Source of the DNA: Toxorhynchites rutilus septentrionalis
Lineage: Eukaryota; Arthropoda; Insecta; Diptera; Culicidae
Assembly (NCBI RefSeq): GCF_029784135.1
Contig: NC_073744.1
Location: 11,967,429-12,031,428 of the forward strand
Direction of reading: 5' to 3'
Length of the DNA: 64,000 nucleotides
The translations under genes and the position numbers were made by a program. Position 1 is the stretch's first letter. Every line of letters begins with the position of its first letter. Under the pieces are notes generated by a model that saw only the letters and a program-made list of their open reading frames with translations, had not been told where the DNA came from and ran no database searches. Positions 20,680-59,335 of the stretch are shown piece after piece.

Positions 20680-20743
20680 ATATAATTTTTATGTTGAGTG
20701 GAAAACAATAAATTAAACTCTTTCGTTTCAAAGCAATATCGAT

Positions 20744-20759
20744 AGTCCTGAAAAGGACT
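20744..20759 (-). promoter_or_regulatory. Histone mRNA 3' stem-loop, copy 2
   Basis: Identical to the loop at 19582-19597 (AGTCCTTTTCAGGACT, minus strand), with the same downstream AACGAAAGAGTTTAA at about 20713-20729. Confidence 0.82.
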
Positions 20760-21110: not shown

Positions 21111-21489
21111 ATTTGGTATGTGTGAAGTAGGCGCCTCCTACTCGTTCGCCATGCAGATATTTAGCTTGCCGGTGAACGAAAGAATCCAATCGGGTGCGAA
21201 AAAGAAATGACGTCAATTTCGACCAATCAGGACTGAGTATCTCTGTTTGGATAGGGGTTGAGATTTTTCAATTATTCGATAGTTAGTTACATGATATATA
21301 CTATTATATTCAATGTGAAAAATTGTTATAGAGTGCCGAAATCGTTTGATGCAAAAATATCATCAATACATCATGAAATGAATGAGCAATAAGCGTTTGA
21401 AATTGGACATTATTCAGGATGCGATCGATTTTCGTTTTTCAATTTGTACCCCAATATGTTCCCGAAAGACGTAATCCTACGTCAAAAAA

Positions 21490-25900: not shown

Positions 25901-25910
25901 TATGTTTATG

Positions 25911-26618
25911 GACGTGGGACTACGTCTAACCGGAGTATATGGGGGGTAAAATGAAAACCTAAACACAGAACATGCAGGCAAAATTGAAAGATTCCGGATG
26001 CTTATAACTCGGACATTTCTCGGAAATGTCCGAGTTATAAGATGTTTGCATCAATTGATAGGGAATATTTCTACGCTCCTATCGCAATTAATAAAATGTT
26101 ATTTTTCGATAGATAAACAATTGAATAACTGTAAAATGTTAAGCGTCATTTAAACGCCCTAACTGCCTCGTTTTGATTGGCCTGATTTACGGTTTCCACA
26201 ACACAGTCATCATAACCAAGCAGCATTGGGGAAATCTGCATCGCAAATACATGAAAGTCGAGGGTATTTTTGTTCCGGCTGAAATGTGTTTCCCTAGCAC
26301 AGACGCCAAATCCATGGAGCGTGGGGAAATTGAAATGTGTTTAACTAATACAGATTTCTAAATCAAGGTGTCATCATACCAAACGTAGAAGGACTGTCAT
26401 TAAATTTACTTGTAACGAAGAACATAATCTAACACAATGGATGAATTGACCTTACATGGCATTATACAATCTTTTTACTCACAAAGCAAATATATTGGAT
26501 TCAATTAAATTCGAAAATTGTTTCATTCAATCAAAAATTTAATCAATACAAACAAATGATTGCTAAGCTAAGGTAGCCCCACGTCAACCTTGCGGTTATA
26601 TCATAGATATAACCCACA
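25911..26618 (+). mobile_element. Hairpin-ended element, subfamily A, copy 1
   Basis: The left end is GACGTGGGACTACGTC. The right end is CCACGTCAACCTTGCGG followed at 26594-26614 by a perfect eight-base hairpin (GGTTATAT/ATATAACC, loop CATAG) and CAC. The interior has a GATTGG box near 26175 and about 1.5 units of the 95-bp minisatellite. It is collinear with 47205-48139 and, inverted, with 54581-55955. It contains a local perfect palindrome at 26001-26041 not seen in the other copies. A B-type element begins 72 bases downstream. Confidence 0.78.
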
Positions 26619-26690
26619 CATTTTTTTTTCAGGATTTCAAAAAAACATGTTTTCGAGAAAAATCAATTTCAATTTTCAAAACATTTTTTT

Positions 26691-29194
26691 TGACGTAGGA
26701 CTACGTCTTTCATTTCTATACCGGGGTGTAAAATCAATGTTTCGAAAACGAAAGCGTTACGCCGGAGACCGAGATTTTGAGCGTTAATAGCTACTAAACA
26801 ACTGAACGAAATGGTATGATAAACACTTCATTCGAAAGATAAAATGTCTACACGTTCTATACTTGTTACTTTTTGATCCAAAAACTTGTTTCAATAGTCT
26901 TAAAATTGCTTTCAAAACAGGCTATTGAAATCACCAATCGGTATATAAGCGAGCGCCGCTCGGAAATCCACTCAGTTCTAATTGAACAGCGATTGGAGCA
27001 TGTTGTCGCTGTTGTGGTGAAGCTCTTCGTTTATCATGAAAGCGCGGATGAACGGTGTCACCAAGAGCCTGTTTGTGCACCTTAGGCCAGACATGATGCC
27101 ACAAACGGTTCCCCGGGAAGACATCGCTACACACACATACACGCGCGGAATTCTTTCCGTTTGGATGCCATTCAGCATCGAGAAAGTTCCGGAAAGATCT
27201 AATCATTTCTGGAAAATAATCTGCCAGTTCCTCTGGGAATTTAAAAATACATTCATGTGAAAGAGTTTATTCGAATGTTTTCTAACTATGTAACACTGTG
27301 ACCAAATATTTTTCAATCAAGTACTATTAACAGGTGGTTATCGAGTTAGTATTAACCACTGGTGGGCTTCCAGTATCGAGGAAAATGTGGAAAGATCTAA
27401 TCGTTACTGAAAATAATCTGCCAGTTCCTCTGGGAATTTAAAAATACATTCATGTGAAAGAGTTTATTTTAATGTTTTCTAACCATATAACACAGCGATC
27501 AAATACATTTGATTTTGTAATTTTTCAACCAAGTGTAATTCGCAGGAAAGCTTCTGAAGATTATTCTTCCACATCAGTAGGATATTTCCGTATCCAATAT
27601 TGTATGCGTACGCAATCGATTATTGCTCAGTCGCCGAAAGTTTCGAGCTCAGAGAGTTCATTCCCCTCTAGTTTGCCTTCCAAATTGCCATCGTAAACCA
27701 CACCTTCTCTCGATTCAATCACACACAGCATACTTAAGCGATATTCTGGTGGTGAGACACATTCATTTTTCGTGAGGACATCGACAAGATAACATCGTTG
27801 CCTAACGTGCTGGAGGAGGTGGATGGCGAAGGATCGACACATACACGCCCAGATTTCTTTCCGTTTGGATGCCATTCAGCATCGAGAAAGTTCCGGAAAG
27901 ATCTAATTATTGCTGGAAAATAATCTGCCAGTTCCTCTGGAAATTTAAAAATACATTCATGTGAAAGAGTTTATTCGAATGTTTTCTAACTATGTAACAC
28001 TGTGACCAAATATTTTTCAATCAAGTACTATTAACAGGTGGTTATCGAGTTAGTATTAACCACTGGTGGGCTTCCAGTATCGAGGAAAATGTGGAAATAT
28101 CTAATCGTTACTGAAAATAATCTGCCAGTTCCTCTGGGAATTTCAAAATACATTCATGTGAAAGAGTTTATTTTATTGTTTTCTATCCATGTAACACTGT
28201 GACCAAATACATTTGGTTTTGTGATTTTTCAAGCAATCGCAATTAACAGGATAGCTTCTGAGATTTTTCTTCCCCATCAGTAGGATATTTCCGTATCCAA
28301 TATTGTATGCGCCCGCAATCGATTATTGCTCAGTCGCCGAAAGTTCCGAGCTCAGAGAGTTCATTCCCCTCTAGTTTGCCTTCCAAATTGCCATCGTAAA
28401 CCACGCCTTCTTTCAATTCAATCACGCACAAAAAGCATACTTAAGCGATATTCTGGTGGTGAGACGCATTCATTTTTCGTGAGGACATCGACAAGACAAC
28501 ATCGATGCTGATGGTGCTGGACGGCGAAAGATCGAGATCTGCCCGCAAACAAACGCAAGCAGTTTGTTTGAAACTGTGAGGGAGCACAGAGAAGCCGATC
28601 CTTCAGGAGAAGAGAAGGTGACCATCGAAGCAGCCGCTACACACACACATACACGCACGGAATTCTTTCCGTTTGGATGCCATTCAGCATCGAGAAAGAT
28701 CCGGAAAATAATCTGCCAGTTCCTCTGGGAGTTTAAAAATACATTCATGTGAAAGAGTTTATTTGAGTGTTTTCTATCCATGTAACACTGTGACCAAATA
28801 TGTTTCAATCAAGGAAAATGTGGAAATATCTAATCGTTGCTGGAAAATAATCTGCCAGTTCCCCTTGGAATTGAAAATAACATTCAAGCGAATGAGTTTA
28901 TTTTTAATGTTTTCTATCCATAAAATATCCATATAATACATTTGGGTTTGTGTTTTGTCAATCAAGTACAGTTAGCAGGAAAGCTTCTGAATTCTTCAGA
29001 ACAAGGTTTTTCGTATCCTATATTGGATACATAAAACCTTGTGCCTCCAACGTAACGCTCTCGTTTTCGAAGTCCCCCAAATATTCATTTATTCATTCAT
29101 TCAGAATTGATTTAGATTCAACTTTAAACAAATGATCTCTAAATCAACGATAGTCCTACGTCACCCTTGCGGTTATACCATAGATATAACCCAC
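26691..29194 (+). mobile_element. Hairpin-ended element, subfamily B, copy 1
   Basis: The left end is TGACGTAGGACTACGTCTTTC. The right end is GTCCTACGTCACCCTTGCGG, then the hairpin GGTTATAC/ATATAACC and CAC at 29171-29194. The interior has a core promoter (26942-26976) and a short transcribed-looking stretch with ACACACACATACACGCGCGG. Then come three partial internal repeats (about 27170-27560, 27850-28260 and 28670-28990), each holding CTGCCAGTTCCTCTGGGAAT and GTGAAAGAGTTTATT, a possible histone-like hairpin plus AAAGAGTTTA element. No protein family was recognised. Copy 2 is at 51508-53372. Confidence 0.72.
26942..26976 (+). promoter_or_regulatory. Candidate RNA polymerase II core promoter in element B
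   Basis: TATATAA at 26942-26948 and an arthropod initiator TCAGT at 26972-26976 are separated so that the initiator A lies 32 bases from the first T. The same pair with identical spacing is kept in copy 2 (51759 and 51791). Flanks GAGCGCCGCTCGG form a small palindrome between the two sites. Confidence 0.6.
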
Positions 29195-29389
29195 TTCCTG
29201 TTTTTTCAATGAATTTCTTTTTTAAAAATTTGTTTATATTTTTAATGAAACTTTTCCTGTGGATTTTTTACATAAAATATCTCGATATCTGAGAGGCTTT
29301 TTTTCGTTTTTGAGATATAATTTTTCAAAATTAACCGATGGTTCGAAAAAACAAATTTTTCCCTTCTATCCAAAAATGATTTTTAGCAA

Positions 29390-29836: not shown

Positions 29837-31258
29837 GTCACAGGAGGGTTCTGTCCGAGACACGACCGCATAGTTGACGTAGGATTACGTTAGGCTATCT
29901 GTTGATTTTGGATATGTTTGAAGAATTACATCGTTAAACTCTTTGATAACGATTTGGTGGCCTCCTGCCGTTTGCCGTTCTGTTTGATTGCTGGGTATCG
30001 TTTGTTCACTCCACCAGTGTTTACCGAGTGATAATGACAGAAGGATGGTAAACAGTCGTTGGATGGCGCGTATCAGATAAATGATACGGAAGTGGAACGA
30101 GATATGATGAAAACCGCCCTCTGTGATCCTAGACGAGATGCCTCCTGTGTTATGTATGGTAGAAATAAAAATCTTACCAATGTAATATAAGATAATTACC
30201 AATACCGAACACAATTATAAATTTTTCTCATCGGTAAAAATATGTTACTTTAATATAGAGCAGGGGTTTTCAAATGGTGCTCCGCGGGAAATTTGTGCTC
30301 CGCGAAGTTATAGCAAATGCTTAAAAAAAACAATTTTTCAATCAAATTTCACGGGGCATATAGTGGTTTATCTTGTCAACTCCGGATTAGATGTCGTATA
30401 ACTGCGACGCGCAACCGAAATAGAATTGTTTCCAATTGAATATTGTCAATGCAAATAGGATTTGTTTTATTGAATCAAAAATGCAGGTGCTTCGTCAAAT
30501 AGTATTGCTATAAAAAGTGTTCTGCCATAAAAAAAAGTCTGGACACCCCTGATATAGAGAAAACATATTTGAAATGGAAAAGGTAATTTTCTTTTTACTT
30601 TCTGAGTGTTTATTCAACCCAATGCGAATTTTAATAGGACTAACAACACCTAATACCATATGTAGAGCAATCACTTTTTCTAATATTTCTTCACTTTTCC
30701 AATTTTTGTCGTCGTATATACTTTCCTTAGGTGAAAATGAACACAACAAAACACATACACTTACACTTGTGTGCCAAATTTTTCACAATACACGATCGGT
30801 CATTGATATGAAATTTCACAAAGCAACCAACATTAATGTTCCAAATTTAAATTTAATTTGCTAGAATTAATCGTACCACTCACCTTACTTGCAATATAAA
30901 AATGCCCCCGACTTACATATATTTGCAACGCCGATTTCCCCCAGGCAGCTTGGTTTTGATGGCTCTGTTAGGGACCCACCACATGTGTCGTCAATTTCGA
31001 CCAATCAGAAGTGGGTATTTCCGTTAGGATAGGGGATAAGATTTTTCAATTGTTCAATAGTTAGTTTCATGACACATATTATTTTCTTCAATATAAAAAA
31101 AAATGTTATTGAGCGCCGAAATCGATTGATGCAAAATCCATCCATCATGAAAGGACTGAGCAATAAGCGTTTGAAATTGGACAACTTTCACGATGTGCTC
31201 GATTTTTGATTTTCAATTTGAACCCCAATATGTTCCCGAAAGACGTAATCCTACGTCA
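29837..31258 (-). mobile_element. Hairpin-ended histone-type element, subfamily I, interrupted by a hAT MITE
   Basis: Inverted and collinear with 4925-6132. The left end TGACGTAGGATTACGTC lies at about 31242-31258. The right end GTCACAGGAGGG lies near 29838, with the hairpin GTTCTGTCCGAGACACGAC. The histone stem-loop position (about 29960) is badly decayed, while the downstream ATCAAAGAGTTTAA is kept. The hAT MITE 30261-30551 splits it. Its left end sits directly against a non-LTR ORF1 relic. Confidence 0.75.
30261..30551. mobile_element. hAT-type MITE with 8-bp duplication
   Basis: A 291-bp insertion with ends CAGGGGTTTTCAAATGG and, inverted, CAGGGGTGTCCAGAC. An exact 8-bp ATATAGAG repeat flanks it at 30253-30260 and 30552-30559. 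Eight-base duplications and CAGGGGTG-type ends are the hAT signature. No coding capacity. Confidence 0.93.
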
Positions 31259-35174: not shown

Positions 35175-35712
35175 TGACGTAGGATTACGTCTTTCGGGAA
35201 GATATTGGAAGTACAAATTGAAAAACTAAAATCGATCGCATCGTGAAAAATGTCCAATTTCAAACGCTCATTGCTCAGTTATTTCATGATGGATTGATGA
35301 TATTTTTGCGTCAATCAATTTCGGCACTCCATAACATTTTTTTTTACATTGAATAAAATAACATAAATCATGCAACTAACTGTCGAACAATTGAAAAATC
35401 TCAACCGAGATCCGAACGGAAATCCCTCGTTCTGATTGATCGAAATTGAAGATACAAGCTTTTTCATGTACTCTCAATTATTGTAAAGTCATTTTCTTAT
35501 AGATTTACGAGAGTCTTGCATCAATAATTTTGGGCACTCCAAAACAATTCATGACAGTGAAAATGAATTAAATTATATATATTATGAAACTACAGATTTC
35601 AAACCCAATGTGACTGAAGAAATCGGCATTGCGAATACATGAAAGTAGGAGTGGAACATTTAGTACAAGTGTAAATATAAAATTGGTGTATAATAGCGCT
35701 TGTGTTAAAATG
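35175..35712 (+). mobile_element. Hairpin-ended element, subfamily I, left part
   Basis: It starts at TGACGTAGGATTACGTC and follows the layout of 4925-5540, including AACGCTCATTGCTCAG, a weak CCAAT-like box and the GTACAAGTGTAAATATAAAA block. It is interrupted after 35712 by a retrotransposon tail. Matching body sequence resumes at about 36745-36960 (GGTGCTGTTAGTTCAATTGA), and a right end of the same subfamily is at 41055-41352. Confidence 0.65.
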
Positions 35713-35835
35713 ACTTGAAATATAAAACGATTTATTCCAATTTTCATAAATAAAAACCAATGTGTGTTCCCGTTCGAGAACGGATCGTCCGGTTTAAGCT
35801 GTCCGTTTGGTTGTGTTGATTTTCAGTCAATAACA

Positions 35836-36146
35836 GTTCATTCAGGTTGTAGTGATTGGGCGTGATATCTCGGCTTATGTCCAATCACTACAACCTAAAC
35901 GCGCATCTCTATCGCATTGGGCTCGCAGCGAACAATTTTTGTGATTGTGGCGATGGCTACCACGACATCGAGCATGTTGTCTGGTCGTGTATCCGGTTCC
36001 ATGCTGCTCGCTCTCAGCTCTCTAGAGCACTGAGAGCACAAGGCAGACAATCGGATATCCCCGTCCGGGATATCTTAGGTAGCCGGGATCCTGATCTTCT
36101 GCTTCATCTATACCTGTTCCTCAGAAACGCCGATGTCAACGTTTAA
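35836..36146 (+). pseudogene. I-clade-like non-LTR retrotransposon, C-terminus of ORF2
   Basis: The frame reads VISRLMSNHYNLNAHLYRIG, then CDCGDGYHDIEHVVWSC and VRDILGSRDPDLL, ending at a TAA at 36144-36146. The Cys/His cluster (CxC...H...H...C) after a basic NHY segment is typical of the end of ORF2 in I-clade and related elements. It follows the RNase H or reverse transcriptase part, which is missing. It is 5'-truncated at about 35836, so it cannot be active. Confidence 0.78.
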
Positions 36147-36668
36147 TGATGTTTCCTTCGTTGTGCCCCCGTTTCATATCCCTCCTATCCGATCGATAAA
36201 CTTTTACTTAGTCGCGGCAATACATACACACACTCTTTACAGTTGCACGGGCCGAAGGTTGTGCAGTCCACTGATCATTCAACAAGAGCCAAAGGTTGTA
36301 CCGCTCATGACAACTCTACACGAGCTGATGATTGCGCCGGCTAGTGACCATTCTATCCTGGATTCCTCGAGGCGAGAAAGACGCACCACGCTAGATATGG
36401 GGTACAGACTAGGGGGGCGTTGCTGATTAATGGTCAGCTGCATCCCAATAGGAAGTATCCCGTGTCGGGCACACGTACAGAGCATCGAAGACTGCAACAT
36501 ACCAATTATGAGAACACTTGTAATACTAACCTCGAGCCAACCGCGAGTAATCGGTTACATATTACTAACATAGTTGTAAGACAAAAATTGTCAAAATATT
36601 GGACTCCCGGCCCCGTCAGGCTAACGCCACATGTGCCTTAATAAAATATATATTTTGGAAAAAAAAAA
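36147..36668 (+). mobile_element. 3' UTR and poly(A) tail of the same retrotransposon
   Basis: It contains CTCGAGCCAACCGCGAGTAA (about 36530-36549), the block shared with the short tails at 20369-20679 and 59643-59916. AATAAAATATATATTTTGG is followed by a run of A ending at 36668. The body of a hairpin-ended element resumes shortly after. Confidence 0.75.
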
Positions 36669-37319
36669 CAGTTTATTCGGCGAATAAAATGGAAAAAGTA
36701 AAGGAATATTCGAAAAAGTGATTTCCCAAATGCTCTACATATCATATTAGGTGCTGTTAGTTCAATTGAGATTCGCATTGTGTTCCGTTGGGTTTGAAAC
36801 GGTAATGGAAATGGGTTGGAGAAACACTCGGAAGGTAAAAATTCTAAGAGAAAATTACCTTATCCATTTCAAATATGTTTTCTCTATAATAGATCAACAT
36901 GTTCTTTTCTAGTGAGAAAAATTTATAATTTTGTTCGATGTTGATAATTTCCTGATACAACAGTTTTTTTTCTTTATTTCATCCACTAGCGGCTCCGTAT
37001 CATGTTTTCGTAAGTTTCCCGCATAGTCATTGGAATAGCCTTGCTTTTGCACTCGAACAGACTCGCAACTGTTTTTTTTTCTTTTCTTTACTTCAATGTT
37101 TCTTTTTTACTCCAAATAGCTCTATGTCTCTTTTCTGCCACTCTTTCCCTGCGTTCAATTGTTGCTCTTCCAACTAAGACTTTAACTTCTAACTCTCTAC
37201 TTTTCATTCTCTACTCTCTACTTTATACTTTCTGCTCTCATCAGTCTACTCTGTAAAACCTGTTTTTGTGCGTTTTTTTGCGCGTTTTTTTTTGTGCGAT
37301 TTTCTGTTTTTGTGCGGTA

Positions 37320-38036
37320 CAGTGCCACAAATTATCAAAATTTATTCACGAATGAAGGAATTAGATTTTTCCCAGTATTGGATGAATTCTCTTCTGTTGA
37401 AACTCAGCACCATATCTGTCATAATGAGTATGACACAAGAGTCGAGACGCATGAGCTTTGTCTGGTATATTGATCGAAAACAGCATGAACGAATTTCGAA
37501 AAGCCTGCATTCAGGCACTTCCATTACTGTCAATAATTTCAGGTGATTATCACGAACGTTAAGTTGATCTTCATCGCTTGCAGTGAATTTTTATTGAAAA
37601 CGTGTCACCCACTGCACATATAAATGGTGGTGTATGTCATTTCCGGGCAATCGTGAGTAGATCCATAAAACGTAGCAAGAGTTATTCTATACATTCTATT
37701 GCCGAACTCGCCAAAAACAAGAATTTTGTGTGATGGATTGCCATCCTTTACCATTAATCGATTTTACTCTCAATTGGTGAAATTGAATTTTATGCTTTGA
37801 TTTTCACTAACACGCAATGATCTTCTTTTTCGACCTTACGAATACTATGACGAAAAGGAAGGTGCAAATGAAAAATGAACTTCATGGCAAGCTGATGTTG
37901 ATGTTCATTCCACTGGGGTTCATTGACAGTGTTGTTCCATATTTATCGACTCTCGCTTGAGCAGTAGGTTATCAATACAAGGAAGGCAGCAATTCGCTGA
38001 ATTTGAATGTCGTGAACGTGAATATTTTCAGCACTG
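37320..38036. mobile_element. hAT-type non-autonomous element, 717 bp
   Basis: The ends CAGTGCC and GGCACTG-like (CAGCACTG) are flanked by an exact 8-bp GTGCGGTA repeat at 37312-37319 and 38037-38044. It begins CAGTGCCACAAATTATC and contains CAGCATGAACGAATTTCG and CATTCAGGCACTTCCATTAC. A shorter copy is at 43688-44195. Open frames within are short and unrelated to hAT transposase. Confidence 0.85.
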
Positions 38037-38594
38037 GTGCGGTATATGAAAAGAAGCATATTTTTTAGAGGCGAATGAACTGCAAAGTTTAAAGCCTCTT
38101 AAAAACAAAGAAAGAAGAAGAAGCATATTTGACGAAGTTATCATCCATTTAGTTTTTTTCGATGGTTTATATGCATTCAGTGCGAAAAAAACATATTTGC
38201 GTCTCAATTATCCACTACTTCTGAAATCCTTCCCCTCCTCTCATCAAATGCTCTAAGTTTTTCTAAGTTTTTGCATGACATGATTTCTAACAGCAACACG
38301 TTTCGACATGCAACTAAAAGCCGAAACAGGCACGCGCAACCGAAAAGGCAAAGTGTCCCATCGCAAAACAGGGAAACAAAAGGAAATTGAACGGTGAATG
38401 GCGTGGATTTTAGTTATTTTCTTGGGGGAATTTTTTTAAGCGGTCCCTATCCACCGCACAAAAAAAGTTTTTTCAAAATGTGTACCGAACACGATTTTTT
38501 AAAGCTGCTGGTGAAGTTTTACACGATTTTTTTATGCGACTTTATTGTGCGGTCCCTATCGCCCGCACAAAAAAAGGTTTGCCTGTACTCACTA

Positions 38595-39400
38595 TTACTC
38601 ATTTCCTACTCTCTATTATATACTTTCCGTTCTCATCTCTCTACTTTCTACTCGCTACTATCTACTCTTTACTTTCTACTCTCTACTGTTCACCCTCCAC
38701 TCTCTACTTTCTATTCTCTACTCTCTACTCTCTACTCTCTACTCTCTACTCTCTACTCTCTACTCTCTACTCTCTACTCTTTAATCTCTACTCTTCATTT
38801 TCTATTCTCTATTTTCTTCTCTCTACTCTCTTCTCTCTACTCTCTACTCTCTACTCTCTACTCTCTACTCTCTGCTCTCTACTCTCTATTCACTACTGTT
38901 TACTTTCTACTTTTCATTTTCTATTCTCTACTTTTTTCTCTCTACTCTACTTTTTTCTCTCTACTCTACTTTCTACTCTCTACTCTCTAATCTCTACTCT
39001 CTACTCTCTACTCTTTACTCTTTACTCTTCATTTTGTACTCCTAACTCTTTAGTATTTACTCTTCATTTCTTGTTCTCTACTCTCTATTCTCTACTCTCT
39101 ACTCTCTACTTTCTAGTCTCTAATCTCTACTCTCTACTATCTACTCTTTACTCTCTTCATCTTCATCTTCATTTTCTATTCTCTATTTTCTTCTCTCTAC
39201 GCTCTTCTCTCTACTCTCTACTCTCTACTCTCTACTCACTACTGTTTACTCTCTACTCTTCGTTTTCTAATCTCTACTCTCTTCTCTCTACTCTCTACTC
39301 TCTACCCTTTACTCTTTACTCTTTACTCTTCATTTTCTACTCCTAACTCTTTACTGTTTACTCTTCATTTCCTGTTCTCTACTCTCTACTCTCTAAACGC
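38595..39400 (+). repeat. TACTCTC heptamer minisatellite
   Basis: About 800 bases of tandem and near-tandem TACTCTC, with variants such as TACTTTC and TTCATTTTC, giving a nearly pure pyrimidine strand. A smaller patch lies at 37170-37250. Between them GTGCGGTCCCTATC and CCGCACAAAAAAAG recur at 38440-38470 and 38545-38575. Long open frames rich in Leu-Tyr-Ser across this array are by-products of the repeat. Confidence 0.93.
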
Positions 39401-39427
39401 TAATTCTTGAGCGTTTTTATTTATATA

Positions 39428-41040
39428 GCAATTTCAAATGAAGTAGTTCTGAAAATGCAGATTTTGAAAACATGTATTTTCGATTCGCATGAAAGTTTGT
39501 ATTCCGTTTGGGTTGGAGGAAATATGAGTTTTCTACGGCAATTGAGATTTTTTGACTCAAGTGTAACTTGAGTAAGGGTGTATCGATTTTAGTAAGAGAA
39601 ATCTTTGATAATTTATATCTGAAAAAGCTATGAGTCGTACCGAAATATTGTCTTATAAAGAGTTATAGAGTATTGATGTTAAAATGTGAAAAAAAATTAC
39701 ACTGAGAAAAAAAAATAATTCTCTTTTCTCTAGTTACAAAAAAAAAGTTTGCAATATATGAGACATTTCTAATTTATTGTCGTTTTTAATTTTATTTTTT
39801 TTTATATTTATATATGCATTTTAATTTTTTTAAAATTATTTTATATAAAATAGAAATCATGTAGAAAGTTTAAAAAAATAGTCCAAGATGGTAAAACTAT
39901 TTGTGACGAACTTTGTGGAACATTGAATTTTTTGGAATTTTCGAAACCTAGAATATTTGCCTGATGTGATTTAAAATGCAAAATCTCTTAAGCCATTCTC
40001 GAGATATTTGAATAAACATTTCTAATTTATTGTGGTTTTCAATTTAAATTTTTTTTTTGAAACTCATATATTCATTTTTTAATTTTTTGAGATTATTTTA
40101 TATAAATAGAAATCATGTACAAAATTGTTATAAATAGTCCAAGATGGTTCTAGACGAACTCTGAGGAACGTTGATTTTTTATGAATTTTCGAAACATCGA
40201 ATTTTTTAATGTTTACAATAATTTTTAGCCACAAATTATGAATCCTGATGAAATTTAAAACAAAAAAATTCTTTATTCATCTCCTTCTAAATGGAGTCAT
40301 TCTATAGATATTAAAAAAATATTTCTAATTTATCGTCTTTTTTATAGTAAATAGGCTCATTTAATATGTTTGTCGTGTTATACCGTGATGTTCATGAAAT
40401 TTTATGAATTTTTGAATAATTTATAATAACTTTTCCAAATACATCATCATGGTAAAAATATATGTTGTATGTAAGTATCACATTGAAATACATTTCAAGA
40501 TATGTGGGTTAAAACTCCTATGCATAACATGGATAACTCCTAAACATATATTTTTACCATAATAAATTTAAAGAGATGTTGAAAATTATAAGAAAATTCA
40601 TCAAATTTTATGAACATGACGGTATGACATGACAAACATATTAAAAGAGCCTATTTCTCATAAAAAAAAACTAATAAATTAGAAATATTTTTTTTAATAT
40701 CTCGAGAATGACTGCATTTAGAATGTGATTGATAAAGAACTTTTTTGTTTCAAATCAAATCAGGATTCATAATTAGTGGTTGAAAATGATTTTTAACGAA
40801 CAAAATTCATAAAAATATTCCACAAAGTTCATCAAAAATAGTTTTACCATCTTGGACTGATTTTTTAAATTTTCTACCTGGCTTCTATTTTATATGGAAA
40901 AAAATACAAAAAAAAATTTAAAGATACATATTTTTTGTAAATAAAACTGTAAAAAAAACCCAAACGGAATACAAACATTCATTCGAATTAAAAATACTCA
41001 TGTTTTGTCATTTGTCGATTTCATTTGGAATTGCTCTATA
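39428..41040. repeat. Foldback element, copy 3, the most complete
   Basis: The outer arms are GCAATTTCAAATGAAGT near 39430 with GTTTGTATTCCGTTTGGGTT near 39495, returning inverted as CCCAAACGGAATACAAAC near 40960 and CATTTGGAATTGCTC near 41022. Inner blocks CAAGATGGTAAAACTATTT and GACGAACTTTGTGGAACAT occur twice forward (about 39883 and 40140) and once inverted (about 40840). So it is a multi-module foldback. A 298-bp TA-flanked MITE sits inside. Confidence 0.78.
40354..40651. mobile_element. TA-flanked MITE nested in the foldback
   Basis: A 298-bp element with inverted ends GGCTCATTTAATATGTTTGT and GGCTCTTTTAATATGTTTGT, continuing through CATACCGT and ATGTTCAT for about 55 bases. It is flanked by TA at 40352-40353 and 40652-40653. 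The arms are complementary almost to the centre. Confidence 0.87.
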
Positions 41041-41054
41041 GCACAGGAGCCATA

Positions 41055-41352
41055 TTGTATATGGCCACGGACGACGACTTTCCTCAGATCTCATTCCACT
41101 TTAGCATCTTCTATCTTGATACGTACTGTCCAACGACTAATCACCATCCTTCTATCATCATCACTCGGTTGTAAACACTGGTGGTGTTGACAAACAATAC
41201 CCAACACCCAAACAAAACAGCCCGTTTCAGGGCCACCAAATCATTATCAAAGAGTTCAACGATCAAACATATTCAAAATCAGCATGCAACAGATAGCCTA
41301 ACGTAACCCTACGTTAACTATGCGTTCGTGTCTCGGACACAACCCCCCTGTT
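41055..41352 (+). mobile_element. Hairpin-ended element, subfamily I, right part
   Basis: It matches the last 280 bases of 4925-6132: the CATTCCACTTTAGC and CCAACGACTAATCACCATCC blocks, then ACACTGGTGGTGTTGACAAA, the histone stem-loop (41219-41234), ATCAAAGAGTTCAACGAT, and the end CCTACGTTAACTATGCG, hairpin and AACCCCCCTGTTGC. It may be the right part of the element that starts at 35175, separated by nested insertions. Confidence 0.68.
41219..41258 (+). promoter_or_regulatory. Histone-type 3' stem-loop and downstream element
   Basis: AGCCCGTTTCAGGGCC at 41219-41234 (family form GGCCCTTTTCAGGGCC) is followed by ACCAAATC and ATCAAAGAGTTCAA. Two changes weaken the outer pair and the loop closing pair. 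Confidence 0.65.
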
Positions 41353-47204: not shown

Positions 47205-48139
47205 TGACGTGGGACTACGTCTAACCGGAGTATATGGGGGGTAAAATGAAAACCTAAACACAGAACGTGCAGGAAAAAATGAAAGATTCCGAATGCTTAT
47301 AACTCGAACATTTCTTACTGGATCGGAATGATGTTTGCATCAATTGATAGGGAATATTTCTACGCTTCTATCGCAATTAATAAAATGTTATTTTTCATCA
47401 GATAAATAATTAAATAACTGTAAAATGTTAAGCGTTATATAAACGCCCTAACTGCCTCGTTTTAATTGGCCCGATTTACGGTTTCCCCAACACAGCCATC
47501 AAAACCAAGCAGTCTTGGTGAAATCGGCATTGCAACTACATGGAAGTATGGGGACTTTTGTTCTCACCGATATGTGTTCCCGAACACAGACTTCAAAACC
47601 AAGTAGCGTTGAAGAAATCGGCATTGCAAATACAAGAAAGTCGGGGGTATTTTTGTTCCGACTGAAATGTGTTTCCTAAACACAGACTTTAAATCCATGG
47701 AGCGTGGGGAAATTGGCATTGTAAATACATGTAAATCGGGAGCATTTTTGTACCGGTTGAAATGTGTTTCCCCAACACAGATTTCAGAACCAAGGTGTCT
47801 GGGGAAATCGGCATTGCAAATACATGCAACTTGGGAGCAATTTTGTTCCGATTGAAATGTGTTTGCCTAACACACACTTCAAATCCAAGCTGTCTTCATA
47901 CCTAACGTAAAAAAAATGTCATTACATTTACTTGTATCGAAGAACATAATCCATCACAATGTATGAATTGACCTTACATGTCATTATACAATCTTTTCAC
48001 TCACAAAGCAAATATATTGGAATCAATTGATTTCGGAAATTGTTTCATTCAATCTAAAATTTAATCAATACAAACAAATGATTGCTAAGCTATGGTAGCC
48101 CCACGTCAGCCTTGCGGTTATATCATAGATATAACCTAC
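47205..48139 (+). mobile_element. Hairpin-ended element, subfamily A, copy 2
   Basis: The left end is TGACGTGGGACTACGTC. The right end is CCACGTCAGCCTTGCGG and then a perfect eight-base hairpin at 48116-48136. It contains AACTCGAACATTTCTTACTG, the undisturbed form of the palindrome in copy 1, a weak GATTGG-like box, and 4.2 units of the 95-bp minisatellite. A subfamily III element begins 97 bases downstream. Confidence 0.8.
47490..47892 (+). repeat. 95-bp minisatellite inside element A
   Basis: About 4.2 units, each containing CACAGACTTCAAAACCAAG, GGGGAAATCGGCATTGCAAA, TACATG and GAAATGTGTTTCC. The same unit occurs about four times, inverted, at 55300-55690, about 1.5 times near 26200 and 1.7 times near 5215. 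Short open frames across it reflect the unit length, not a protein. Confidence 0.85.
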
Positions 48140-48754
48140 CCATTTTTCAATATTGAAATTTCATCTAGAATTTAATTGAATCAAAACCATTACAATCCAT
48201 TGAAAATTTCCGCATCATATTTTTTAAATTTCTTTTGACGTAGGACTACGTCTAACCGGAAGATATAGGGGGTGAAATGGAAATCTAGGCACTGAACAAG
48301 TAGGAAAAAATGCAAGATTTGGAACGCTTATAACTCGAGCATTTCTCAATAGATCGCAAAGGTTTTTGCATCAATTGATAGGAAATATATCTACGCATCT
48401 ATCATAACGAATAACATTTCATTTTTCTTGAGATAAATAATTGAATAATTGTGAAATATCAAGCATTGTCCAAATACACTATGTGCCCATTTTTGATTGG
48501 TCCATTTTGTGCTCCTCAAATCGTACCGACCAAAACGGGCAACCAGAGCAGCAGCGAAATAGAATGAAGCACGATTGGAAAGGAAAAAGAAAAAAATGAG
48601 GGAAACATTGGTCGCAGTCTCACACATGCGTAATTCTCGAGCCAGCCAGTCAGCTTAACAATCCCCGCTCCGCTGCCGTAACGATCATTCTCATCCAAAC
48701 CGTACACCGCATCGGTTCGCATCACAACACATCAACAAACCAACCCAAGCAGCC

Positions 48755-49213
48755 ATGTCTGGACATGGTAAAGGAGGAAAAGTGAAGGGAAAGGCAAAAT
48801 CCCGCTCGAACCGTGTTGATCTGGAGTTCCCCGCAAGGGTAGCTAGGCCGAGCGCGTTAGTACCAGTGTACCAGTCCACCTAGCCGGCGTTATATAGCTT
48901 CGGCCGCCGAAGTGATCGAGTTAGCTGGCAAAGCTGCTCGCGACGATAAGAAAACCTGCATTTGGAACAGAACACATTCGGTTCGGTGGACATCAAGACA
49001 AAAGGCAGTTGCAGCGAGTGGCGAGTGGCAAACGCAATCGCAAAACGGCATCAGGTAGCAGAAGAAAAAAGTTTGTTCTTTATACAAACTGCTTTGGTGG
49101 CAAATCCAGAACAAGGCGGCATCGAGGGCGTTCGAAATGGTTTTTTTCAAAACCACGAGTACTAAGTTTTCTAAATTGGAACCATTCCATAAAACAAGGC
49201 GCTTTTCAGGGCC
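48755..49213 (+). pseudogene. Histone H2A pseudogene, copy 1
   Basis: The start ATG at 48755, in AGCCATGTCTGG, opens MSGHGKGGKVKGKAKSRSNR, matching the H2A N-terminus (family MSGRGKGGKVKGKAKSRSNR). The reading then breaks: a deletion removes the RIHRLLR part. Another frame has KGS-stop-AERV and VPVHLAGVI (H2A KGNYAERV, APVYLAAVI). A third frame restores EVIELAGKAARDDKKTCI, the H2A alpha-3 region (VIELAGNAARDNKKTRI). The C-terminal LNKLLSGVTIAQGG part was not found. A decayed histone stem-loop closes the unit at 49198-49213, followed by AAAAAAGAGTTTA. H2A normally has about 124 residues; this copy cannot encode one. Confidence 0.88.
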
Positions 49214-49236
49214 ATTAAACCTTCCAAAAAAGAGTT
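49198..49236 (+). promoter_or_regulatory. Decayed histone 3' stem-loop and downstream element
   Basis: GGCGCTTTTCAGGGCC at 49198-49213 has one mismatched stem pair against GGCCCTTTTCAGGGCC. CCAAAAAAGAGTTTAGG follows at the usual distance. Confidence 0.7.
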
Positions 49237-49431
49237 TAGGAAATAAAGTTCAATGCTTTCTAAAACATTATCCAAAATAATAATAAAACAACAATTGATG
49301 TTTTCATAATTTGTTTGCCAGGATCTGATGAGTATGTGAATTTGGCAGTTGTTCTGAGCTTATTGATAGTTGGGGACTTTCCCGATTATTCAATTTTCAC
49401 CAATTCTTAAATTGTTTCCAGATTGAAAGTA

Positions 49432-49651
49432 CAGTAATTTACAATTAGTTCGACATTTAGCTAATTGGACTGACATGTAATGCGACTTATTTAGTTGGAC
49501 ATTTTTGTAAACATAGAGATCCAAATTATGACCCCACATTGAAAGTCGACACTGTACTACTGTCATCGCAAATGTTCAATTACAGGTTAAAATTACCTCC
49601 AATGCGACACTGAGTGGCGCTTCGGCACGTCGCATTGAATGTAATTTACTG
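49432..49651. mobile_element. Small TA-flanked MITE in tandem unit 1
   Basis: The ends CAGTAATTTACA and TGTAATTTACTG are flanked by TA (49430-49431 and 49652-49653). About 220 bases. The equivalent copy in unit 2 is at 50738-50956, so the insertion predates the tandem duplication. A related fragment is near 33465-33520. Confidence 0.78.
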
Positions 49652-49799
49652 TACAACATGTCACAAAGCTGGATGGGAAGAAATTTTCCAACTGTGAAAG
49701 CTGTGGAGAGTGGCAACAAATCGCTAAACAGGAAGGTTTAGCCGAACAAGATGTGGATATCGAGTGATAACAAAACAATAAACTCTTTAGTCTTTTTGT

Positions 49800-49815
49800 G
49801 ATCCTGAAAAGGACC
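49800..49815 (-). promoter_or_regulatory. Histone 3' stem-loop on the minus strand
   Basis: GGTCCTTTTCAGGATC read on the minus strand, followed by ACTAAAGAGTTTATTG. It points away from the H2A promoter near 49974, as expected for the partner of a divergently transcribed histone pair (H2B next to H2A in many insects). No H2B coding remains were recognised between the two. Confidence 0.72.
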
Positions 49816-49971
49816 CTTTTTAGCCTGTATGTGAATCCAACGAGCGAACAAATCGTAATGAATGTATTTTTTTGCCATCGCTCCCTTTTAACGCTCATTC
49901 GTTCGTCTCGTTGGACTCGCCCCTCTGGCTGAGTCTGCCGATTTGTCTCTATCCTGTGAGTGTGTACCGCT

Positions 49972-49986
49972 AGAGTATAAAACACG
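49972..49986 (+). promoter_or_regulatory. TATA box of the second H2A pseudogene
   Basis: AGAGTATAAAACACGCGG lies about 85 bases upstream of the H2A-like codons that begin near 50067. Confidence 0.6.
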
Positions 49987-50060
49987 CGGACCCCAAAAAA
50001 ATATCTTATTTTCTTTCAAACCGTAAACCCGTGTGGTTGTACGGCATCGGCATCGCGTAC

Positions 50061-50524
50061 TCAACAAAGGAGGAAAAGAGAAGGGAAAGGCAAAATCCCG
50101 CTCGAACCGTGGTGGTCTGCAATTTTCCGTAGGTGTATCCGCCAAATGCACCGGAAGGGTAGCTAGGCCGAGCGCGTTAGTACCTGTGTACCAGTCCACC
50201 TAGCCGGCGTTATATAGTTTCGGCCGCCGGAGTGATCGAGTTAGCTGACAAAGCTGCTCGCGACGATAAGAAAACCTGCATTCGGAACAGAACACATTCG
50301 GTTCGTAGACATCAAGACAACAGGCAGTTGCAGCGAGTGGCAAACGCAATCGCAAAACGGCATCAGGTAGCAGAAGAAAAAAGTTTGTTCTTTATACAAA
50401 CTGCTTTGGTGGCAAATCCAGAACAAGGCGGCATCGAGGGCGTTCGAAATGGTTTTTTTTAAACCACGAGTACTAAGTTTTCTAAATTGGAACCATTCCA
50501 TAAAACACGGCGCTTATCAGGGCC
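50061..50524 (+). pseudogene. Histone H2A pseudogene, copy 2
   Basis: The initiating ATG is lost. The frame gives KGGKEKGKAKSRSNRGGLQF (H2A KGGKVKGKAKSRSNRAGLQF) and SVGVSAKCTGRVA, longer in the middle than copy 1. It then shares with copy 1 the same stop codon in KGS-stop-AERV, the same frame change, and VIELADKAARDDKKTCI. The decayed stem-loop GGCGCTTATCAGGGCC is at 50509-50524 with AAAAAAGAGTTTACGG after it. Because both copies share their lesions, they arose by duplication of an already dead gene. Confidence 0.87.
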
Positions 50525-50737
50525 ATTAAACCTTTCAAAAAAGAGTTTACGGAATACAGTTCAATGCATTCTAAAATAATATCCAAAATAATAATAAAAC
50601 ACAAATTGATTTTTTTATAATTTGTTTGCCATGATGAGTATGTGAATTTGGCAGTTGTTCTGAGCTTATTGATAGTTGGGGACTTTCCTGATTATTCAAT
50701 TTTCACCAATTCTTAAATTTTTTCCAGATTGAAAGTA

Positions 50738-50956
50738 CAGTAATTTACAATTAGTTCGACATTTAGCTAATTAGACGGACATGTAATGCGACTTATTTAG
50801 TTGAAATTTTTGTAAACATAGAGATCCAAATTATGACCCCACATTGAAAGTCGAAACTGTACCACTGTCATCGGAAATGTTCAATTACAGGTTTAAATCG
50901 CCTCAAATGTGACACTGAGTGTTTCTCCGGCACGTCGCATTAAATTTAATTTACTG
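50738..50956. mobile_element. Small TA-flanked MITE in tandem unit 2
   Basis: Duplicate of the MITE 49432-49651, with the same ends and interior apart from point changes and a slightly decayed right end (TTTACTGACC). Confidence 0.75.
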
Positions 50957-51507
50957 ACCAACATGTCACAAGCTGGATGGGAAGAAATTTTCCAACTGTG
51001 AAAGCTGTGGCGAGTGGCAAACGCAAAAGCTAAACAGGAAGGTTTAACCGAACAAGATGGGGATATCGAGTGATTAAACAGTAAACTAATCCATTTTTCA
51101 GGTAGATAGGTAGGTATTCACGTAGGGGAAGAAAATAAAATAATATATAAAGCTGTCCCCTTTGTATAGTCCTACGTCACTCCGGTTATGTCCCCGACAT
51201 TACCCACCCGTCTTTTTATTTTCCTAATATCAATTATTCTATTGTATTGGTGTATACGTAAAAAACCCTTAACCTTATTACAAGCGCAATGGAAACATTG
51301 TACCAAATTAGAAAATTAATTAGCAATTTTTCTGAATCCATATAGAATTCACTACAAGAGCTAAACGTGGTTTTTCGCCATTCTCAATAGCTTGGAAATG
51401 AAAACATGGAAAAAAATTAAAGTGCTTACTGTGATGTGCCACGACATATCGCCAAATAAAATTAAAAAAGAAAATTCAAGTTTCTATGGCATTTCGCGAT
51501 TTGATTT

Positions 51508-53372
51508 TGATGTAGGACTACGTCTTTCATTTCTATACCGGGGTGTAAAATCAAAGTTTCAAAAACGAAAGCGTTACGTCGGAGACCGAGATTTTGAGGG
51601 TTAATAGCTCCTAAACAACTGAACGAAATGGTATGATAAACACTTCATTCGAAAGATAAAATGTCTACGCGTTATATACTTGTTACTTTTTGATCCAAAA
51701 ACTTGTTTCAATAGCCTTAAAATTGCTTTCAAAACAAGCTATTGAAATCACTAATCGGTATATAATCGAGCGCCGCTCGGAAATCCACTCAGTTATAATT
51801 GAACAGCGATTGGAGCATGTTGTCGCTGCTGTGGTGAAGCTAACTTCGTTTATCATGAAAGCGCTGATGAACGGTGTCACCAAGTGCCGATGGCGTTTAT
51901 GCACCCTAGGCCAGAAGGGAATCCATCAGGAGGAGAGTGATGCCACTGAAAAGGCGACCAAGAGAATATAAGCATCGAAAAACGGTTCCGCTTGAAACAC
52001 CGAAGCAGCCGCCACACACTCACATACACGCGCGAAACTCTTTTCATTTGGTTTCCATCCAGCATCGAGAAGATTCCGGAAAGATGTCATCGTTGCTGAA
52101 AAATAATCTACCAGTTCCCCTTGGAATTGAAAACTACATTCAAGCGAAAGAGTTTATTTTTAATGTTTTCTATCCATATGATACTGCGACCAAATACATT
52201 TGATTTTGTGATTTTTCAATCATATACAATTAGCAGGAAAGCTTCTGAAGAACGAAAATATCCCATCAGGATATTTTCGTATCCAATATTGGATGCACGC
52301 GCAATAGAAAATGTTTCGCATCGCGAAAATCATATAATTTTCAATCGATTATTGCTCAGTCGCTAGATGTTTCAAACTCAGAGTTCATTCGCCTCTAGTT
52401 TGCCTTCCAAATTGCAATCGTAACCCACTCCTTCTCTCGATTCAATCACGGACAAAAAGCACACTTAAGCGATATTCTGGTGGTGAACAAATTCATTATT
52501 TGTGTGGACACCGACTGGACTACATCGTTGCTGGACGAGCTGGACGAACAGGACGGCGAGGGATCGAGGGAATCATTACCTGACCTGACCTGACCTGAAA
52601 CGCATTCAGTTTGTTTCGAACTGTGAGGGAGTGCAAAAAAAGGCGATGCATCAGGAGGAGGAGAGAAGGCGACCAAGAGAGTATCAGCATCGAGACACGG
52701 TTCCGCTTGATGCATCGGAGCAGCCGCCAGACACACACATACACGCGCGGAACTCTTTTCGTTTGGTTGCCATCCAGCATCGAAAAATTCCGGAAAGATG
52801 TCATCGTTGCTGAATAATAATCTGCCAGTTCCTCTTGGGATTGAAAAATACGTTCAAGCGAAAGAGTTTATTTTAATGTTTTCTATCCATATAATACTGC
52901 GACCAAATACATTTGGTTTTGTGATTTTTCAATCGAGTGCGATCAACTTAAGATCACGTCTTTCGACAATTTATTAGAGATGCAATGAATCTTAAGAAGG
53001 AATTCTCGTTCTACGCGCACTGGCAAACGATGTTTACTCAATAATTTCTCAAACGAGAAATGGGTATTGTGAGAAAGGATGAGCGAGCGCAAAAATTATG
53101 TCGACTGATTTGATGCAACAGATATTTTGTCTATTGGAAATGGAATACTATCAATCACAATACGAGCAATGTATTATGTATTACACAATTTGTGTGATTG
53201 CTTCCTTTGTTGAATATTGTGCCTTCAACGTAACGTTCTCGTTTTCGAAGTCCCCCAAATATTCATTTATTCATTCATTCAGAATTGATTTAGATGCAAC
53301 TAAAAACAAATGATCACTAAATCAACGATAGTCCTACGTTACCCTTGCGGTTATATCACAGATATAACCCAC
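51508..53372 (+). mobile_element. Hairpin-ended element, subfamily B, copy 2
   Basis: The left end is TGATGTAGGACTACGTCTTTC. The right end is GTCCTACGTTACCCTTGCGG and then the hairpin at 53349-53369. It keeps the TATA box and initiator (51759 and 51791) and two repeats with CCAGTTCCCCTTGGAATTG or CCAGTTCCTCTTGGGATTG followed by GCGAAAGAGTTTATTTT. Element arrangement A-III-B here parallels A-B at 25911-29194. A CCTGACCTGACCTGA run lies near 52580. Confidence 0.74.
51759..51793 (+). promoter_or_regulatory. Candidate core promoter in element B, copy 2
   Basis: TATATAA at 51759-51765 and TCAGT with its A at 51791 have the same 32-base spacing as in copy 1, although neighbouring bases have changed. 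Confidence 0.58.
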
Positions 53373-54580: not shown

Positions 54581-55955
54581 GGTGGGTTATATATATGATA
54601 TAACCGCAAGGTTCACATGGGACTACCTTATTGTACCAATCATTTGTTTGTATTGATTGAATTTTTGATTGAATGAAACAATTCTCGAATTCAATTGAAT
54701 TCAATATATTTACTTTATGAGTAAAAAGATTGTATAATTCCATGTGAGGTCAATTCATCCATTGTGTTAGATTATGTTCTTCGTTACAAGTAAATTTAAT
54801 GACAGTCCTTCTACGTTTGGTATGATGCCTAGGACAAAATATGCGAACGGAAGAATTATCAAACGATTATTTCATTTTACGTTTCCTTCTGAAGTTTGCA
54901 TCTCTCAAGTGTACGTACTTCTCGAACCGCGAATTTGCTTGATTTGATGAACTTCAGGCACTCAGTTTCGATTTTGACATTATACGTCGAACGCATATTG
55001 TTTAATCAATAGGCGTCATCGCAGCAATTGGTTATCAACATCTTGCCTAATCATCAAATAGTATGCGTAGGAATTCAGTGAGCAGAAGATATGAAGGCAT
55101 ATCCTTCAATGCAATCTCGAATAACCGAGCCAAAGCGTGGTGTTCGTACCCGCTTTTGTAATCTGTGTTAGGAAAACACTTTTCGGAGTGCAAAAAAAAA
55201 CATGCGAGTGCAGAAGTAACTTCGGAAGACCGTGTTAAGGAAAAATATTCTAGTTTACACAAAGGCAAACGAGTACAAAAGTACTCGCAGAGCCGATTTC
55301 TCCAGACATCTTGTTAGGCAAACATATTTCAGTCGGAACAAAAATGCCCCAGACTTGCATGAATTTGCAATGTCAATTTCCTCATCTTAGTTCTAAAGTC
55401 TGTGTTGGGGAAACACATTTCAGTCAGAACAAAAAATTTTTACATGTATTTGGAATGCCAATTTCCCCACGCTCCATGTATTTGAAGTCTGTGTTAGGGA
55501 AACACATTTCAGTCGGAGCAAAAATACCCCCGACTATCATGTATTTGCAATGCCGATCTCTCCAACGCTGCTTGGTTTCGAAGTCTGTGTTAGGGAACAC
55601 ATTTCGGTGAGAACAAAAATTCCCATACTTTCATGTATTTGCAATGCCGATTTCCCCAAAGCTGCTTGGTTTTGATGGCTGTGTTAGGGAAACCGTAGAT
55701 CGGGCCAATCAAAATGATTCAGTTAGGGCGTTTAGATAACGCTAAACATTTTACAGTTATTCAATTGTTCATCTAATGAAAAATTATATTTTATTAATTG
55801 CGATAGAAGCGTAGAAACATTCCCTATCAATTGATGCAAACATCTCTCCGATCCAGTGAGAAATGTTCAAGTTATAAGCATTCGGAATCTTTCATTTTTT
55901 CCTGCTTGTTTTCATTTTACCCCCCATATACTCCGGTTAGACGTAGTCCCACGTC
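54581..55955 (-). mobile_element. Hairpin-ended element, subfamily A, copy 3
   Basis: The left end TGACGTGGGACTACGTC is at about 55939-55955 (minus strand). The right end hairpin is at about 54585-54605. It contains GATTGG near 55705 and about four 95-bp minisatellite units (55300-55690). A region without counterpart at about 54830-55290 suggests an internal insertion. Confidence 0.78.
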
Positions 55956-56199
55956 AAAATCGTTTATATGTATAGCAGAGTTTGTTCGAATTGAGGAGTC
56001 TTGTCTTGTGGTCGAAGATCATAAAATTATATAAAAAAGTGTAAAAATACTACAGAAGGAGGGTATGATTAAATTTAAAAAAAATGGATCACGTGCTTTA
56101 TAGACGGTTCTAAATAGAAAATCGATGCAGATTTGTGTTCAGCATCCCGAAATTAAGTAAAAACCATGATTTTTTCGCATTTAACGACACTTTTTTTTT

Positions 56200-59255: not shown

Positions 59256-59261
59256 AAAATG

Positions 59262-59335
59262 TCACAGGAGGGTTGTGTTCGAGACACAACCGCATGGTTG
59301 ATGTAGGATTCCGTTAGGCTATCTGTTGAATTTGA
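59262..59335 (-). mobile_element. Solo right end of a subfamily I hairpin-ended element
   Basis: GTCACAGGAGGGTTGTGTTC, the paired ACACAACCGCATGG and GTAGGATTCCGTTAGGCTAT match the right ends near 19360 and 29838. It breaks into a (GAT)n run near 59331. Confidence 0.7.

Follow-up and report, generated by a model that had tools for sequence, protein, structure and literature searches.

A 64,000-nt stretch of Toxorhynchites rutilus septentrionalis (GCF_029784135.1, NC_073744.1, positions 11,967,429 to 12,031,428, forward strand; hereafter the window) carries ten mobile elements that are non-autonomous Helentrons (HINEs), related to autonomous Helentrons, the endonuclease-type rolling-circle transposons, of the same genome. 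We propose, with a probability of roughly two in three, that these HINEs are related to Helentrons whose replicase gene ends in a histone-type 3' signal, a stem-loop followed by a histone downstream element (HDE), which would be processed as in histone mRNA. Relatives were searched for in the window's own genome of 902.6 Mb with three large contigs (C1, C2 and C3, the window lying on C1), and coordinates are window positions unless a locus (R or L) or a contig (C) is named.

A Pfam scan of part of the window's frames and regions found no Helitron domain (three matches, all below the cut-off), and the parents were therefore looked for in the genome. There, a search with PF14214 gave at least 132 matches (150 scored of 1313 candidates), from which ten replicase loci (R1 to R10) were picked and their surroundings retrieved; four more were then added. 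The endonuclease-type set comprises nine loci: R3 and R5, R4 and R6 (classed by identity to R3 and R5 rather than by Pfam), and R9, R10, L074/L078, L075/L079 and L076 (classed by tblastn to the C-terminal part of R3/R5, likewise not by Pfam). L077, which has no recognisable replicase relative, was excluded from the counts. Pfam Helitron_like_N and PIF1 domains were found in R3, R5 and R1, and the endonuclease domain in R5 (31.0 bits, cut-off 24.5); R1 had no Pfam endonuclease match. The Helentron replicases form three lineages, of R3, R5 and R10 type, whose proteins are 54 to 69% identical. Between R3 and R5, 270 of 401 four-fold sites differ (67%), and synonymous sites are near saturation between the lineages. 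Within lineages, R3 and R4 are 99.95% identical over 9.6 kb, and R5 and R6 are 99.94% identical over 6.2 kb and 99.86% over 3.5 kb; the replicase frames of these four are unbroken.

In all three lineages, a stem-loop in sense orientation follows the replicase stop codon and precedes the right end of the element: GGTTCTTTTTAGGACC in R3 (~288 nt from the stop), GGTTCTTTTCAGAACC in R5 (~472 nt) and GGCTCTTTTCAGAGCC in R10 (~221 nt). The stems differ yet pair (GGTTCT/AGAACC, GGCTCT/AGAGCC and GGTTCT/AGGACC), and AAAGAG follows 14 nt after the stem-loop in each lineage. Against the curated Rfam Histone3 cut-off of 34 bits, R5 and R6 scored 40.5, R10 scored 38.8 and two more B loci, L078 and L079, scored 38.1; host histone genes scored 39.3 and 35.7. 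A scan of 35 loci at the gathering cut-off (L055, L057 and L067 were left out of it) returned eight hits, all Histone3, with five behind a replicase, two in host histone genes and one in a HINE. Five of the nine endonuclease-type loci passed the cut-off, R3, R4, R9 and L076 falling below it, and a recognisable signal was present in nine of nine. R3, R4 and R9 matched a model derived from the window's own stem-loops at 44.6 bits, and L076, an older A2 copy, has a stem-loop with a broken pair. In each of the three lineage pairs, the 3' regions aligned best locally at the stem-loop, with scores of 35 for R3-R5, 26 for R3-R10 and 44 for R5-R10 against maxima of 34, 34 and 32 in 200 shuffles. The regions upstream scored 29, 30 and 39 against maxima of 36, 34 and 32 (15 shuffles), and the third value, above its null, was taken to be replicase coding sequence.

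Neither AATAAA nor ATTAAA occurs between the stop and the right end in R3 and R10. The Helitron loci used for comparison (R1, R2, R7 and R8) gave no Histone3 hit at the cut-off, and in R1 four AATAAA motifs start within 162 nt of the stop. Over the greater part of their length R7 and R8 share ~98 to 99% identity with R1, and the frames of R2 equal those of R1 in length. Two matches of the window-derived model at L053 fall in an A2 element neighbouring R2, within the R2 stretch. A separate Helitron family was noted at L050, L052, L062 and L064, without Pfam endonuclease, with near-identical replicases and more long upstream open frames.

The ends of these parents tie them to the window. The A2 ends flank R3 (at 105 and 12595 of the joined stretch), and element A2a of the window, whose ends and 5' part match this replicase-bearing element at C2:320.57 Mb, retains the 5' part and the right end of R3 without the replicase. 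R5 and R6 carry the A1d right end, the end at which A1d-type parents were compared, the R5 and R6 stretches not reaching their left ends; the 5' part of R5 matches A1d, and R6 matches R5 there. In R10, B ends flank a broken replicase on both sides. A HINE beside R5 contains two H2A pseudogenes and an R5-type stem-loop at 41 bits; the A1d copy of the window lacks this terminal signal, its right part resuming inside the HDE (by eye).

The ten elements cover 16,792 bases, 26% of the window, and the coordinates proposed for them in the initial annotation proved good to a few bases when the ends were aligned. They were grouped as A1 (25910, 47205 and 55957 minus), A1d (48236), A2 (26691 and 51508), B (4923, 21484 minus and 31258 minus, with the interrupted B4 at 35175-41352 and a right end at 59260-59335) and C (25674 minus). 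Eleven left ends (~280 bp) and 12 right ends could be aligned and are homologous across subfamilies, as had been claimed for the shared, hairpin-bearing ends; the ~280-bp left blocks are homologous among A1, A2 and B. End identity was 58% for B1 versus A1b and 46% for B1 versus A2a, compared with 27% in shuffled columns (maxima 34-36%). The motif TGACGTAGG occurs 11 times on both strands of the window (100 dinucleotide shuffles: mean 0.2, maximum 3). The A2 and A1 subfamilies share 48-51% identity at the left end and 83-87% at the right end, and since the A2 left end is far from A1 while the right end is close, the ends look mosaic. The promoter-like GATTGG of the initial annotation holds one aligned place in six of 11 left blocks, and is not enriched in the window as a whole (31 versus 32.6 expected).

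The left end starts with TGACGTAGGAYTACGTCT, itself palindromic, and at the right end its inverse precedes a hairpin, which reads GGTTATATC...GATATAACC in the majority of A copies and, for B and C, mostly GGTYGTGT...ACACAACC. This 3' terminal hairpin has pairing in 88% of cells and two-sided changes in 10, and no shuffle of 500 came up to either figure; two of nine pairs changed on both sides, which is not unusual (263 of 500 shuffles), and one pair is open in six of 12 copies. The elements have palindromic subterminal inverted repeats (subTIRs) of the 12 to 15 bp typical of Helentrons and HINEs, the 5' one lying 2 to 4 nt from the 5' end, and the order of 3' subTIR and then palindrome holds in 12 of 12 aligned right ends. 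Judged by eye, the subTIR lies ~34 to 38 bp and the palindrome ~6 to 10 bp from the 3' end, at or just under the range of mite Helentrons and HINEs, which is ~38 to 60 bp and 8 to 35 bp (PMC4067079). Ts precede 10 of 11 left ends (A1a being the exception), and a T run follows 12 of 12 right ends (by eye); the T-rich targets show no target-site duplication, empty sites included. The window termini exclude a canonical Helitron (5' TC, 3' CTRR, A/T insertion). Because of the palindromic subTIRs, the 3' hairpin, the T-rich sites, the empty sites and the replicase genes with matching ends (partners with Rep, helicase and C-terminal endonuclease), the ten elements are assigned to the HINEs, and autonomous Helentrons probably mobilised them in trans. 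Scans of sequence collections with the element ends and one repeat motif gave no matches; a 16-base motif matched viral contigs 29 times, and no alignment of these to the window went past 24 bases.

A mobile family with true termini, as first suggested, is supported by A1a and by an A1 relative, L033 (C1:58.1 Mb), since both interrupt sequences that are uninterrupted elsewhere, and by the spread of copies over contigs. When its flanks are joined, the A1a site aligns through the junction with 17815-17668 (74% over 164 columns, E 8e-25) and with 18421-18514, there reaching 6 bases past the junction (E 3e-24). A2a sits 71 bp further in the same host repeat; its left flank matches and its right flank aligns weakly. 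L033 sits in an A tract of a Tc1-like transposase gene whose window copy is uninterrupted at that point, and no duplication was seen there beyond the A tract. Element copies are dispersed over the three chromosome-size contigs: with 40 of 7311 candidates scored, A1b gave at least 58 matching rows on C1, C2 and C3, of which the best run the full 935 bases at 85 to 93% identity. Comparing 16 flanks of eight loci showed similarity in three of 120 pairs. The parental 3' regions are dispersed as well. With 40 of 688 candidates scored, that of R5 (from query position 443-447, including stem-loop and right end) gave 41 matching rows, 36 of them at 98-99% identity and spread over all three large contigs; with 40 of 2096 scored, that of R3 gave 43, 33 of them at 88-91%; these copies were counted by alignment, not by the letters of their stem-loops. 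Neither of the patterns named at the outset as speaking against mobility was found, namely copies always lying with intact histone clusters, or ends that are flanking satellite. The right end of R9, an A2-type Helentron, was seen to adjoin an A1d-type H2A stem-loop region (L066, ~9480-9560) as if inserted; the R9 left flank gave no match.

The count of stem-loop/HDE units in the window came to 16: 14 carry AAAGAGTTTA exactly and two carry it with one mismatch. This motif occurs 14 times (dinucleotide shuffles: mean 0.56, maximum 4), and all 14 exact matches fall inside elements. The histone-type stem-loop with AAAGAGTTTA had been described for every copy; the exact motif is present in six of the ten elements (B1, B2, A2a, B3, A1d and A2b), the three A1 copies and C lack motif and stem-loop, and in B3 the stem-loop is destroyed. 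A model built from 15 units recovered those 15 plus B3 (E 0.0029) and nothing more below E 0.8. Across 13 distinct stems, 92% of cells are paired and 16 carry two-sided changes, values neither of which was reached in any of 500 shuffles; such changes fall in four of six pairs, a number equalled in 131 of 500 shuffles. Seven further one-mismatch HDE matches were not counted, since a chance 16-mer with five to six pairs lies near each; pair counts therefore prove nothing there, and we relied on aligned position and sequence. To judge from their sequences, the window units show descent from histone 3' ends rather than current function, which is not inferred because the copies are related and the structure was derived from them.

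Histone coding remnants accompany several of the units. The two H2A pseudogenes of the initial annotation stand, the first with a PDB H2A match for 48755-48838 (E 8.5e-9) in addition to tblastn support. The proposed H4/H1 remnant is upheld for H4; the Lys/Ala/Pro-rich tail at 19782-19672 (minus) proposed as H1 has no PDB match. The H2A and H4 remnants hold stops or frameshifts. An H2B remnant in B1, B3 and B4 is probable: their consensus scored 56, reached by none of 600 shuffles (maximum 55), and the single copies were equalled by 38, 2 and 10 of 600. Weak histone scores (z 3.0-3.4) were obtained for H3 in B1 and for H4 in C, B3 and A1d. A score for H2B in the reversed A1b repeats (z 5.2) was dropped, 18 of 600 shuffles being as high. 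The A1d and B subfamilies took up histone gene DNA (H2A; H4 and probably H2B) that has since decayed. In a listing of 150 histone matches, with 150 of 7890 candidates scored, the host arrays lie on C2, C3 and small contigs, the big ones at L070, C2:101.6-102.7 Mb, C3:233.5 Mb, C113, C210, C243, C375 and C470, and C1 has single scattered matches and no array. In the L070 array, H2A/H2B and H3/H4 are divergent. Many lone histone-like matches, several with stop codons, also lie off the arrays on C1, C2 and C3 in that list; they could be Helentron cargo or other pseudogenes.

Histone mRNAs lack a poly(A) tail and peak in S phase, properties set by their 3' end, and the HDE lies downstream of the cleavage site. 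If the replicase signal works in the same way, SLBP would bind its stem-loop and the U7 small nuclear ribonucleoprotein the downstream AAAGAG element, and the pre-mRNA would be cut between the two without polyadenylation. With such processing, the replicase mRNA would in turn build up chiefly during S phase, presumably the time at which host replication serves a rolling-circle transposon best. Helentrons are believed to transpose by way of a single-stranded intermediate, with the help of a Rep/helicase (PMC4067079). The anatomy and mobility of the elements, and the position and sense orientation of the signal and its presence in three lineages with near-saturated synonymous sites, are direct observations. 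A functional role for the signal seems somewhat to reasonably likely, and we lean slightly toward the stronger form in which the replicase would be an honorary replication-dependent histone gene, with an SLBP- and U7-dependent, non-polyadenylated, S-phase-limited mRNA, kept in at least three anciently diverged lineages and carried by many HINEs, a borrowing of the host pathway that would time transposition to DNA replication.

Several observations weigh against this reading. The R3 stem-loop, like those of R4 and R9, scores 22.9 bits, with a UUUU loop and a G-U pair; the R3-R10 stem-loop alignment is within the shuffle range and that of R3-R5 barely above it. R5 has one AATAAA before the stem-loop and one after. 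The R10 3' end resembles those of host H3 (76% over 70 bp) and H2B (77% over 62 bp), as expected of a captured tail. No host-histone-like promoter stood out upstream of the replicase in comparisons with 30 shuffles (R3 versus the H2A-H2B spacer, 34 against a maximum of 28; the rest within the shuffles), and an intron-like stretch follows the R3 stop (by eye). The R3 endonuclease match (24.2 bits) is just below its cut-off, and the replicase genes of R9, R10 and the other B loci are broken or were read in part. In the window, HDE conservation was not significant (8, 23, 18 and 62% of the windows compared were equally conserved in the subfamilies), and the B3 open frame at the H2B position has no PDB match. 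The weak A2 stem-loop, the R5 AATAAA, the R10 tail and the promoter result are our main reasons for caution.

The units could instead be passive cargo, tails of histone genes captured at different times and without a role for the replicase. Helentrons do capture histone DNA, as is reported for Culex (PMC4067079) and as H2A and H4 show here, and the decay of window copies such as B3, the unremarkable HDE conservation, the weak A2-lineage stem-loop and the 62 to 70 bp of host likeness in R10 all fit this explanation. It does not readily account for a signal at the same place and in the same orientation in three replicase lineages so far diverged, with stems that differ but pair at a fixed spacing of 14 nt, nor for the R5 and R3 3' ends, for which the sampled host array gave no match at E 0.01; we consider it rather unlikely. 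The stem-loop might also serve as single-stranded DNA in rolling-circle transposition, for example as an extra terminator, since its distance from the right end is within ~150 to 250 bp and a terminal hairpin is already part of these elements. However, its loop, flanks and AAAGAG fit an RNA-processing consensus needless for a DNA hairpin, and several mobile HINEs (A1a to A1c and C) do without it, which makes this use very improbable. Finally, decayed, intronless histone coding could have arrived as processed retropseudogenes inserted in the elements, an origin we find hardly credible: the HDE, which in a histone gene lies beyond the cleavage site, and TATA regions upstream (by eye) accompany the remnants, and therefore DNA rather than mRNA was captured. 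Of the two origins first offered, capture from or descent from histone units, capture is the better reading, the parents being Helentrons with a replicase gene. The histone parts are then captured cargo together with a 3'-end signal of which the element seems to make use.

PMC4067079, which we take to be Thomas, Vadnagara and Pritham 2014, is the published work closest to these elements. The initial annotation knew of no described family of this kind; the architecture is that of Helentrons and HINEs, and H4 and H15 fragments were already reported from a Culex Helentron in 2014 (PMC4067079). This element, Helentron-Cq-32A of Culex quinquefasciatus, compared here by description rather than by sequence, shares the palindromic subTIRs, the 3' stem-loop, the poly-T boundaries and non-autonomous partners rich in tandem repeats, and its H4 and H15 fragments, in eight copies, hold stops and frameshifts. 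Unlike here, that account, in the part considered, treats the histone parts as captured fragments, mentions no H2A or H2B, and names neither a histone 3' processing signal nor a histone 3' end behind the replicase (PMC4067079). DINE-1/HINE elements of Drosophila and mites likewise have subTIRs, a 3' hairpin, TT/poly-T insertion and non-coding interiors, and for the mite Helentrons and HINEs, again compared by description, the same part reports no potential protein-coding gene fragment, in contrast to the present family (PMC4067079). Like replication-dependent histone genes, the replicase genes have a stem-loop and then AAAGAG, with Histone3 scores of R5, R6 and R10 at host-gene level; host spacing is 14 nt in H3 and ~18 in H4 (by eye). 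Unlike histone genes, the gene bearing the signal encodes a rolling-circle replicase. The open-access literature, searched at the level of listings, reported no transposon with a histone stem-loop. What appears new is the histone-type 3' signal behind the Helentron replicase, the Helentron family and histone capture being already known.

Table. Coordinates of elements, histone-derived parts and a neighbouring transposase gene in the window
Feature	Position	Strand	Remarks
A1a HINE	25910..26619	+	Sits in a repeat uninterrupted at 17815-17668 and 18421-18514
A1b HINE	47205..48141	+	Termini aligned; ~95-bp tandem repeats, no histone part; dispersed genome copies
A1c HINE	54581..55957	-	Termini aligned
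A1d HINE	48236..51206	+	Two decayed H2A units, inverted stem-loop/HDE between; relatives in L058, L059 and L071
H2A pseudogene 1	48755..48971	+	tblastn E 1e-7; frameshift-aware z 37.8
H2A unit 1 stem-loop GGCGCTTTTCAGGGCC and HDE	49198..49238	+	Second copy at 50509-50549
Inverted stem-loop GGTCCTTTTCAGGATC and HDE	49779..49815	-	In A1d, facing the H2A unit
H2A pseudogene 2	50066..50291	+	Tandem copy, 90% over 1042 bp
A2a HINE	26691..29199	+	Six tandem stem-loop/HDE units
A2b HINE	51508..53371	+	Two degenerate stem-loop/HDE units, 52113-52156 and 52827-52870
B1 HINE	4923..6135	+	Probable H2B remnant ~5840-5983, stem-loop 6006-6021, HDE 6036-6045
B2 HINE	19360..21484	-	Two tandem units: TATA region (by eye), decayed H4-like coding, stem-loop, HDE
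H4 pseudogene fragment	20899..21000	-	In B2; PDB H4 E 5e-6; z 14.2
B2 stem-loops AGTCCTTTTCAGGACT	20759-20744; 19597-19582	-	Each followed by HDE
B3 HINE	29838..31258	-	HDE kept, stem-loop destroyed
B4, B element interrupted by other DNA	35175..41352	+	Right part 41038-41352
B4 stem-loop and one-mismatch HDE	41219-41258	+	In right part of B4
B5, B-type right end alone	59260..59335	-	End alignment
C, related HINE without stem-loop	24010..25674	-	Termini aligned
Tc1-like transposase gene, two frames	11649-12659	-	DDE_3 and HTH domains (Pfam)

Some further features of the window were noted. A 20-bp inverted repeat in A1a (26001-26041) is absent from A1b and A1c, and a weak Rfam match of the same segment to a plant microRNA was judged surely spurious. 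By eye, the B4 interior at 35900-36500 resembles a non-LTR retrotransposon 3' end, with a cysteine/histidine-rich C-terminus, and a long, repeated CT-rich stretch at 38400-39400 gives spurious long open frames. Among eight matches of the Tc1 protein, two were named relatives, both from Ochlerotatus camptorhynchus. At 60597-61037 (minus), an open frame is transposase-like by eye and has no Pfam match.

A conserved histone 3' end on the replicase gene, if confirmed, would be a concrete and testable link between a transposon and S phase, and a case of a non-histone gene using the histone mRNA pathway. It might also explain the presence of histone DNA in the Helentrons of this genome. The dispersed HINEs spread possible SLBP/U7 signals through the genome, and the histone 3' signal behind the replicase may tie transposition to DNA replication.

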